Positions 8,174 to 27,062 of a stretch of 64,000 bases of DNA are shown piece after piece. The number at the start of each line of letters is the position of its first letter. Position 1 is the first letter of the stretch. Origin of the DNA: Bacillaceae bacterium IKA-2 (GTDB lineage Bacteria > Bacillota > Bacilli > Bacillales > Anaerobacillaceae); NCBI GenBank assembly GCA_031761875.1, contig CP134492.1, forward strand, positions 682,001-746,000. The letters are read 5' to 3'. The notes beneath the pieces were generated by a model. It saw nothing but the letters and a program-made list of their open reading frames with translations. It made no database searches and had not been told where the DNA came from. The translations under genes were made by a program, and so were the position numbers.

Positions 8174-8479
8174 TTGTCACTAATTTTTGAGCAGCCATTT
8201 ATAAAGGTAGAACGAGAAATTGATGGGATAGAACAAAAGTACATCGAAAAAAAGTATTTTTTGTATTTATACGAGACAGAGCTTGTTACGCCGTTTCAAA
8301 TTTTCCAATTAAAGGATATTGCTGACGTGTCTTTTCGTAAAACAAAAGCTAACATATATGGAACCCTTTATTTACATGTAGGTCAAAGTGTATTTCCATA
8401 TTATATTTATAATGATCCAGAACCTTTTATAAACGCCGTAAAACAGCTTTTCGAAAATAAAAAAACGAGCTTGAGGTGA
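8174..8479 (+). CDS. Conserved hypothetical protein, possible PH-like fold
   Basis: This 101-residue protein starts at TTG 8174 after AAAGGA (spacing nine). Its alternating beta-strand pattern (KKYFLYLYETELVTPF, ADVSFRKT, TLYLHVGQSVFPYYI), followed by a C-terminal helix PEPFINAVKQLFE, resembles bacterial PH-like proteins that respond to membrane or stress signals. No catalytic motif is visible. The stop codon sits inside the left arm of a terminator. Confidence 0.65.
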   Translation: MSLIFEQPFIKVEREIDGIEQKYIEKKYFLYLYETELVTPFQIFQLKDIADVSFRKTKANIYGTLYLHVGQSVFPYYIYNDPEPFINAVKQLFENKKTSLR

Positions 8480-8501
8480 TTAATTCACACAAGCTCGTTT
8501 T
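8459..8501. terminator. Bidirectional terminator between convergent genes
   Basis: AAAAACGAGCTTG pairs with CAAGCTCGTTTTT across a 15-base loop, with A and T runs on both sides. It serves the hypothetical gene (+) and degV (-). Confidence 0.88.
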
Positions 8502-8512
8502 TAGTAGATAAT

Positions 8513-9370
8513 TTATTTCTGTTCATTTTGCCAAATCAACGCTACAGTACCTTCTCCAGCATGAGCAGCAATTGTTGAACTAATTTCACCTACAACTACG
8601 CCGATATCAGGAAATTGTTTTTCAATTCTCACCTTTAACTCTAAAGCTTTAGCTAAGACGTTTCCATGCATAATTTGAACTTCGGTAACGCTATTTTTTT
8701 CAAGTGCGCTAGCTAAAAATTCTAGTAACCGATTTACAGCTTTTTTCTCAGAGCGTACTTTTTGGAATAAATCGAATTTACCTGTTGTTCTAATTGTTAT
8801 AATCGGCTTAATTTGCAAAAGATTACCTAGTAAAAACTGTGTTTTTGACATTCGGCCGCCTTTATGAAATTGATCTAAACTGCCTAATAAAATATACTTT
8901 TCGGAATTTAAAGCTTCTTCACGAAGTTTAGCAGCAATTTCTTTATGGTCATCAATGGTTTTAGCTAGTTCTATTCCTTTATAAAGTAAAGTTGTAATTG
9001 AATAAGACATCGATTTTGAATCGACAATTTCTCCATTAAAGTCTGCCATTTCCAAACCGGCTCTTGAGCTTTCAACCGTCCCACTTAATTCCCCAGATAC
9101 GTGAACAGCAATTACTTGTTCATATTCGGCTTTAAGCTTTTCAAAAAGTTCAGCAAACTTTCCAACAGAAGGTTGTGAAGTTTTTGGTACTTCTTTTGAA
9201 TTATTTATCTTCTCATAAAGTTCTTCAGTTGTTAAATCAATGCCATCTTGATAAGACTGCCCAGAAAAGATAATTATTAAAGGCATTATGTAAACATCAG
9301 GATTTTCACGTAATTCTTTTGTTATAAAAGCTGTGCTATCAGTGACCCAAGCTATCTTTTTTTTACTCAT
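8513..9370 (-). CDS. DegV family fatty-acid-binding protein
   Basis: The 285-residue protein has the DegV opening KIAWVTDSTAFI, the TSQPSVG segment and the ligand-contact region VHVSGELSGTVESSRAG. DegV/FakB proteins bind a fatty acid and present it to a FakA kinase for phosphorylation. No fakA is in the window, so the partner must lie elsewhere. The ATG start at 9370 follows AAAAGGAATTGAGCGC. Several paralogues are usual in Bacillaceae and this sequence alone does not say which it is. Confidence 0.9.
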   Translation of the reverse strand: MSKKKIAWVTDSTAFITKELRENPDVYIMPLIIIFSGQSYQDGIDLTTEELYEKINNSKEVPKTSQPSVGKFAELFEKLKAEYEQVIAVHVSGELSGTVESSRAGLEMADFNGEIVDSKSMSYSITTLLYKGIELAKTIDDHKEIAAKLREEALNSEKYILLGSLDQFHKGGRMSKTQFLLGNLLQIKPIITIRTTGKFDLFQKVRSEKKAVNRLLEFLASALEKNSVTEVQIMHGNVLAKALELKVRIEKQFPDIGVVVGEISSTIAAHAGEGTVALIWQNEQK

Positions 9371-9729
9371 GCGCTCAATTCCTTTTTAATAGATTTTTTA
9401 AAATGTAGTCTAATTATACAATGAGAAACAGTTTATCACCAACTATTCGAAGTAGTAATAATTAGATCAAGTATATTCTTCTTATATTGTATCGATAATG
9501 TTAGCGCTTGCATAGTATTCCTTTCTATTCCGACAAATTTCTTTGAAGTGGAATAAACTTTTGTGGCGAGTATAAAAGCAGAATGTCGAAAAAAGATGTT
9601 TGAAGAAGCGCTAATAAGGTAATCTTAAAATAGTAGCAGAACTATATTATATTATATTAATTATTATTTGATATTAAATATAATCTATGTTATGCTAAAA
9701 TTATTAAAAATTTAAGGAGTGTTTTAAAC
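9371..9729. other. Intergenic region upstream of dps
   Basis: The 359 bases between divergent degV and dps are AT-rich and hold no ORF worth calling. AT-rich dyads near 9643-9690 resemble a PerR-type box (12 of 15 matches at best), but base composition makes that weak. TATGCTAAAAT near 9690 may be the dps -10 region. Confidence 0.4.
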
Positions 9730-26047: not shown

Positions 26048-26103
26048 AAGTACCTAGTTCCCAAATCGATCAACGTATGATCAAACTGGAGAACTAGGCA
26101 CTA
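26048..26103. terminator. Hairpin between convergent cadA and msrA
   Basis: CCTAGTTC and GATCA pair with TGATC and GAACTAGG. On the minus strand the stem is followed by TACTTTT, so it may terminate msrA. Confidence 0.6.
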
Positions 26104-26109
26104 TAACGA

Positions 26110-26760
26110 TTACCACTTCAATTTATTTAATAATGCAACGAGCTCCTTGGTCTGTTCAGGATGGAAGCCCCATTCGTTGATTTCTTCTTTAAGACTACCT
26201 AAACTCCCATGTCCTGCCACAAATCCATTTAACCTTGCCGCTATCGTGGAGTTTACGAAGTCACTATGACTGAGGAAGATACTTTTAACTTCCTCTACTG
26301 CTTTCGTATATCTTTTCAAATAATATTTTTGATGATACTCTTCCGCAGCATAAAATTTTGAAAAAGGAGCCATTTCAGTTTGAATTTCTCCGTTTAACGT
26401 TTGTTCCCATTTCCTCTTCATTTTTAAAGCCCAAGCCTCTTGGTCTTCATTTCGATGGAGGAGCAGTGACATATACTGCCTTCCTTTATAAAAAGATTCT
26501 CTAAGCGGATTATGATTCTGCCAAAAAACATCTAACAGTTCTTCATAAGAGATAAGCTCTGGATGAAAATCAATTTCAATACTTTCTGTATGATCACCCA
26601 TACTTCGATAGGTAGGGTTAGATGTAGATCCTCCTGAATAACCTACACGAGTTCGTACAACACCTGGTATATGCCCGAAATGGGCATCAGGACCCCAAAA
26701 TCAGCCCATGCCGAATGTTGCTGTTTCAATATTAGGTGCTTGCAAATTATAATTATTCAT
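26110..26760 (-). CDS. msrA: Peptide methionine sulfoxide reductase MsrA, putative selenoprotein (in-frame TGA)
   Basis: Read through a TGA (26703-26701), the frame is 216 residues with AAAGGAGG seven bases before ATG 26760. It reads ATFGMG-U-FWGPDAHFG, so the TGA is at residue 20, exactly the catalytic Cys of GCFWG. The rest is a standard MsrA: GVVRTRVGYSGGST, GDHTESIEIDFHP, VFWQNHNP and YHQKYYLK. The protein has no other cysteine, so Sec would be its only redox residue and no resolving Cys exists. Known Sec-containing MsrA proteins of clostridia are similar. MsrA reduces methionine-S-sulfoxide in proteins. A conventional call would begin at 26601 and lack the active site. Confidence 0.88.
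26663..26691 (-). promoter_or_regulatory. Candidate SECIS hairpin in msrA
   Basis: On the minus strand, CCTG-ATGCCC pairs with GGGCAT-(4-base bulge)-CAGG around the loop ATTTC, which starts 19 bases after the TGA. Distance and stem fit a bacterial SECIS, but the loop lacks a G in its first two bases, so the match is weaker than that in cadA. Confidence 0.5.
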
Positions 26761-27062
26761 CTTTCTCCTCCTTTAGATTTGAGTCTTTCTGGAAACTTGA
26801 AAGAGCACGATTAATTTTTATTATTTACGGTGTGAAAAAGACAGCTGCATAATCAACATGACCCTTTAACGGAGCCATGATTTAAACATATATGCTCTTA
26901 TACTCACTCTTCCACTCTCTTAAATAACATTTTAACATTTTTGAAAAGAATAGACGTTAATCCACACTTTAAAATTTTACCTTTCTGCAATCCTAAATCC
27001 TCAATGCTACCTTAATAAGATATAATTATGGTAAAATTGTCTCCTATAACGGTTAGCTAACA
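26761..27062. other. Intergenic region upstream of msrA
   Basis: AT-rich, with no convincing ORF. A 17-codon minus-strand frame (26827-26880, MAPLKGHVDYAAVFFTP) has no ribosome-binding site. The msrA promoter should lie here; I could not pick clear boxes. Confidence 0.4.

Follow-up and report, generated by a model that had tools for sequence, protein, structure and literature searches.

A probable selenoprotein MsrA of the CoMsrA type in Bacillales, with a changed loop in its SECIS-like hairpin

MsrA proteins that carry Sec form an established selenoprotein family (PMC13188914, PMC9312934). Their best comparison for the present locus is CoMsrA of Clostridium oremlandii, whose full-length protein is the solved structure 4LWJ (PMC4333827). 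CoMsrA carries Sec as its catalytic residue and contains no Cys, its Sec form is 20-fold more active than the Cys form, and its reductant is glutaredoxin, not thioredoxin (PMC4479559). The bacterial SECIS model describes a hairpin with a stem of 4-16 bp and a loop of 3-9 nt, lying 16-37 nt after the UGA with an energy of at most -7.5 kcal/mol; the loop has a G at its first or second position, usually as N-G-[G/U]-N-N' with paired outer bases (PMC13188914). According to the same review, some selenoprotein genes deviate from this model.

For Bacillales, a survey of 2006 gives 3 selenoproteins, belonging to 3 families (PMC1794560), and two surveys disagree on Sec use in aerobes (PMC13188914, PMC5029168). 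Titles and abstract openings of the literature searched, mostly without subscription papers, mention no Bacillales Sec-MsrA, and we claim no priority. Here we describe such a candidate gene in a 64,000-nucleotide stretch of DNA, called the window below, and we follow its UGA codon and the adjoining hairpin across the order.

The msrA reading frame

The gene, its start signal and its domains lie on the minus strand:

26110..26760, minus strand: probable Sec-MsrA gene, ATG 26758-26760, 216 codons with UGA read as Sec, TAA 26110-26112
26767..26774, minus strand: ribosome-binding site AAAGGAGG, read upstream of ATG 26758-26760
26701..26703, minus strand: in-frame UGA at the catalytic codon, residue 20; found at the matching codon in 44 of 44 TGA homologues
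26308..26724, minus strand: MsrA catalytic domain (PMSR, PF01625), residues 13-151, Pfam 144.8 bits (cut-off 23.7)
26176..26253, minus strand: C-terminal selenoprotein-MsrA helical domain (PF20939), Pfam 23.8 bits, barely above the cut-off of 23.7

Around the UGA the frame reads ...TATFGMG-TGA-FWGPDAHFG..., and this TGA is the sole stop ahead of the TAA, giving a predicted product of 216 residues including Sec. Counted over the whole frame, the number of Cys codons is zero. An earlier note, made from the letters of the DNA, had claimed an intact minus-strand MsrA frame from ATG 26760, interrupted once, on the catalytic residue of GCFWG, and free of Cys; all of this stands. It was also right that a standard ORF call loses the active site: the mechanical ORF list has 26110-26601, from a downstream ATG at 26601. 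Ordinary gene calling thus turns this Sec-MsrA into a fragment that lacks its catalytic centre.

The protein also matches NCBIfam TIGR00401 (132.7 bits, cut-off 108.1) and 30 distinct sequences of solved structures, the best of them being 4LWJ (E 3.3e-61, over residues 11-215). The ORF list places no Cys-MsrA partner beside the gene. Past the stop codon, at 26050-26101 on the minus strand, one can see by eye an inverted repeat whose arms of about 11 bp enclose a loop of roughly 30 nt and behind which TTTTAG stands; the terminator scan, set to loops of 3-8, does not include it.

Selenium genes of the genome and Sec or Cys homologues across the order

The genome searched is one contig of 4,424,890 bases. 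It encodes selA (558.9 bits, cut-off 267.9), selB (337.2 bits, cut-off 242.25), a selD that has its own in-frame TGA (401.0 bits, cut-off 125), a LysR regulator of selenium metabolism (296.9 bits, cut-off 250) and a tRNA-Sec with anticodon tca (58.7 bits, gathering score 47). The check on selABCD proposed earlier therefore comes out positive: selA, selB, selD and tRNA-Sec are all there, and an objection from missing Sec machinery falls away. Within the window itself, neither an Rfam scan of its whole length, run with gathering scores, nor a tRNA scan gave a match. Elsewhere in the genome, two formate dehydrogenase alpha-like matches (L219, 1348308-1350329, and L222, 3560739-3561497, both on the minus strand) contain one in-frame TGA each, each adjoining a SECIS-like hairpin with the loop GGUCU. 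Two further MsrA homologues of this genome are free of stops.

Two observations concern the neighbours of the Sec genes. At L010:14324-15394 (minus strand), the start of a GT4-type glycosyltransferase gene overlaps the end of selB. Its best match is NCBIfam NF038229 (234.5 bits, under the cut-off of 400), followed by the SenB selenosugar synthase TIGR04348 (67.9 bits, cut-off 300), and a homologue adjoins selB in 13 of 18 loci, this one included, where each locus reaches only 1.5 kb to either side of the match; the enzyme may be related to selenium. At L041, a tyrosine recombinase gene (8406-9608, minus strand) starts about 120 bases past the tRNA-Sec gene (8198-8289) and is followed by three more recombinase-like ORFs, an arrangement resembling a mobile element that has settled at the tRNA-Sec gene.

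We then looked at the order as a whole with a profile built from ten homologues, counting matches with E at most 1e-55 as full-length relatives. Such relatives occur in 52 of 397 genomes, 44 with an in-frame TGA and 8 without. The TGA falls on the catalytic codon in all 44, and that codon encodes Cys in all 8. SelA, which is present in 181 of the 397 genomes, accompanies every one of the 44 TGA homologues and none of the 8 Cys homologues (Fisher p 1.3e-9, an optimistic value because the genomes are related). Thus, with TGA homologues in 44 of 397 genomes and SelA in 181, Sec use is common in this order. Two ordinary-type MsrA matches that had been flagged with TGA (G049, G029) have Cys at GCFW.

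On a tree of 57 rows, the Sec or Cys label changes 4 times on the best tree and 3-4 times over bootstraps, with 1 change forced by well-supported branches. Independent-pair tests restricted to supported branches yield 1 pair for Sec against the hairpin and 3 pairs for column 23 against column 27, too few for significance. Within the order, this enzyme comes in a UGA and a Cys version, in genomes that have the machinery and in genomes that lack it, which offers material for studying Sec/Cys exchange.

Broken Sec-MsrA copies are found in three SelA-carrying relatives, as a frameshift (L021, G015), an extra TAA (L155, G313) and an N-terminal remnant (L035, G005), although these may be sequencing errors; taken as they stand, they indicate that Sec-MsrA can be lost while the Sec machinery stays. 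In the relatives L015 (G002), L016 (G056) and L155 (G313), the Sec-MsrA gene has an ordinary Cys MsrA homologue as a neighbour, no more than about 500 bases away.

The hairpin after the UGA and its changed loop

Directly 3' of the UGA, two nested features can be drawn:

26671..26687, minus strand: SECIS-like hairpin with a 6-bp stem and the loop AUUUC, the loop lying 19 nt downstream of the UGA; in relatives the stem has 7 bp and the loop is GUU
26663..26691, minus strand: the hairpin with a 4-bp lower stem, -12.4 kcal/mol

The 46 TGA genes aligned for the hairpin include the frameshifted L021 and the TAA-bearing L155, which are left out of the tree and of the Cys counts, and five loci (L187-L190, L192) that the motif search had missed and that are thus outside the earlier alignment and the tree. 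The 18 Cys homologues used for comparison are the 8 from the order-wide profile search and 10 named loci (L063-L070, L073, L078). The latter were picked from 21 loci (L062-L081, L098) among 80 matches: L071 gave no row, L072 and L079 were omitted because their contigs equal those of G389, already in the set, and G207 in length, and the comparison leaves aside Cys rows from archaea or other distant sources (L074-L077, L080, L081, L098).

Across the 46 TGA genes, the 7-bp stem (columns 17-23 with 27-33) is paired in 95.0% of cells, and sliding one partner lowers this to 17.1-43.5%. Changes on both sides of a pair occur in 21 cells, against 6.4 in shuffles that keep relatedness, none of 500 being as high. 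For example, pair 23-27 is G-C in 28 genes and A-U in 14, and pair 20-30 is C-G in 38, G-C in 4 and G-U in 1. In the 18 Cys homologues, the matching stem is paired in 44.4% of cells with no excess over shuffles. The lower stem behaves otherwise, being paired in 60.4% of cells in the UGA genes versus 83.3% in the Cys homologues; we discarded it as specific evidence because the Cys homologues pair it more often. RNAalifold's own consensus, in which the UGA bases pair with columns 26-28, receives no covariation support, since it shows 0 both-side changes on the enlarged alignment and shuffles equal the observed value. The 54-nt region of the window, taken by itself, is no more stable than its shuffles (z -0.43, 62 of 200 as good).

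The SECIS that the earlier note sought on minus strand 26703-26650 is thus borne out as a hairpin with covariation across relatives, but the loop of the window's copy lacks the G of the model. In fact, this copy fits the bacterial SECIS model (PMC13188914) in its stem (6 bp), loop length (5 nt), spacing (19 nt) and, with the lower stem, energy (-12.4 kcal/mol), and departs from it in having no G in the first two positions of AUUUC. The apical G is present in 45 of the 46 TGA genes and missing in the window's alone, where a U stands at 26680 and the outer pair is A.C. The window's msrA contains no other hairpin that meets the rules; the one that does carry the G has a spacing of 14 and -4.9 kcal/mol.

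The other Sec genes of this genome follow the pattern, with A-GUU-U in selD and G-GUC-U in both formate dehydrogenase genes. The start of selD could be located in 19 of the 21 SelA loci, this genome's own included, and the loop site reads AAGTTTT in 18 and AAGTATT in 1; the minimum-energy fold gives the selD loop in 9 of the 19 and another fold in 10, again including our own. A changed SelB specificity was considered and left no sign: over the last 130 columns of 18 SelB sequences, this SelB has no unique substitution at otherwise invariant columns.

How should the lost G be read? Because of it, we grade Sec insertion in the source strain, as predicted from sequence, only as likely; insertion may be weak there or recently lost. 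It is possible, and we put it forward tentatively, that this msrA is still decoded as Sec with a UUU loop instead of GUU. If so, either the SelB of this lineage tolerates a loop without G, or msrA relies on another SECIS class in a genome whose selD and two formate dehydrogenase genes retain the standard loop. The loop change offers a natural, testable variant of the SelB recognition site.

The alternative that holds up best, which we nevertheless consider rather improbable, is a Sec-MsrA by descent that was recently disabled, or nearly so: with the apical G gone, SelB would bind poorly and translation would mostly end at the UGA. A G that the model asks for (PMC13188914), missing in 1 gene of 46, speaks for this reading, as do its retention in selD and in both formate dehydrogenase genes, a SelB without any unique change at the invariant columns of its compared end and the broken copies in three relatives; the loss could also be borne, because two other stop-free MsrA homologues are encoded in the genome. 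The rest of the gene tells otherwise. No further damage is visible across 216 codons, the end branch of the protein is not long (0.32 versus a median of 0.31 on the 57-row tree), and its codon-position differences from relatives resemble those among the relatives. Judged by this normal branch and these differences, the protein appears to be without relaxed constraint and the gene to have been under selection until recently at least. In addition, some selenoprotein genes fall outside the SECIS model (PMC13188914).

A genuine stop at the UGA, with a fragment from ATG 26601 that lacks the active site as the product, agrees with the mechanical ORF call and is nonetheless very improbable: the residues before the UGA and at its motif are conserved in ten aligned homologues, and the 8 homologues of SelA-less genomes have Cys at this very codon. 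We likewise reject a chance stop in a pseudogene, since conservation extends to the UGA, the protein around it and the hairpin. That an ordinary Cys-MsrA was misread in sequencing or assembly, TGA being one base away from a Cys codon, is hardly credible given the identical TGA in 44 homologues of other genomes, the flanking protein and hairpin conserved in relatives and the Sec machinery in this genome.

Proposed function and comparison with known enzymes

Our preferred reading, which we hold to be quite probable, is that the gene codes for a selenoprotein, an MsrA of the 1-Cys/1-Sec type with a helical domain, with insertion, catalysis and electron donor proposed as follows. SelB and Sec-tRNA-Sec would decode the UGA, helped by the hairpin directly 3' of it. 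Sec20 would then attack methionine-S-sulfoxide, releasing Met and forming a selenenic acid, which a glutaredoxin-like protein, a small thiol or both would reduce. Such reduction would have to come from outside because the protein has no resolving Cys. The genome contains four PF00462 matches, one of which (L196) has a CPYC motif, and BshC, which marks bacillithiol synthesis. Bacillithiol is therefore plausible as a reductant, and it joins the glutaredoxin-like proteins as a candidate.

A Cys-type MsrA with the helical domain also exists, as in L018 (G019), Planococcus (L063) and Paenibacillus (L064). It shares the two-domain length and the conserved residues of the window's protein, and differs in that Cys replaces Sec and the hairpin is not kept. 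In five haloarchaeal Cys-type homologues (L074, L075, L076, L077, L080), the start of the helical-domain region (ARLNGF...) is common with the Sec type.

By its sequence, the window's protein is classed as a 1-Cys/1-Sec MsrA with a C-terminal helical domain, that is, of the CoMsrA type. The likeness to clostridial Sec-MsrA without a resolving Cys, drawn in the earlier note, holds at the level of sequence and against the published description of CoMsrA. Like CoMsrA (Clostridium oremlandii OhILAs, 4LWJ), the window's protein has its predicted Sec in GUFWG, lacks Cys and carries a helical domain, and the alignment extends over residues 11-215. The CoMsrA active-site residues Tyr47, Glu55, Gln89, Tyr90, His137 and Tyr140 (PMC4333827) correspond to Y51, E59, Q95, Y96, H143 and Y146 here, all invariant in the alignment of ten homologues. 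The absence of Cys is shared by 16 of the 39 intact Sec homologues, the window's included, over the part of the sequence read. Unlike CoMsrA, which has 209 residues, this protein has 216, and it comes from a different order of Bacillota. The enzyme type is already known, and the window's gene is a further Sec-MsrA of that type.
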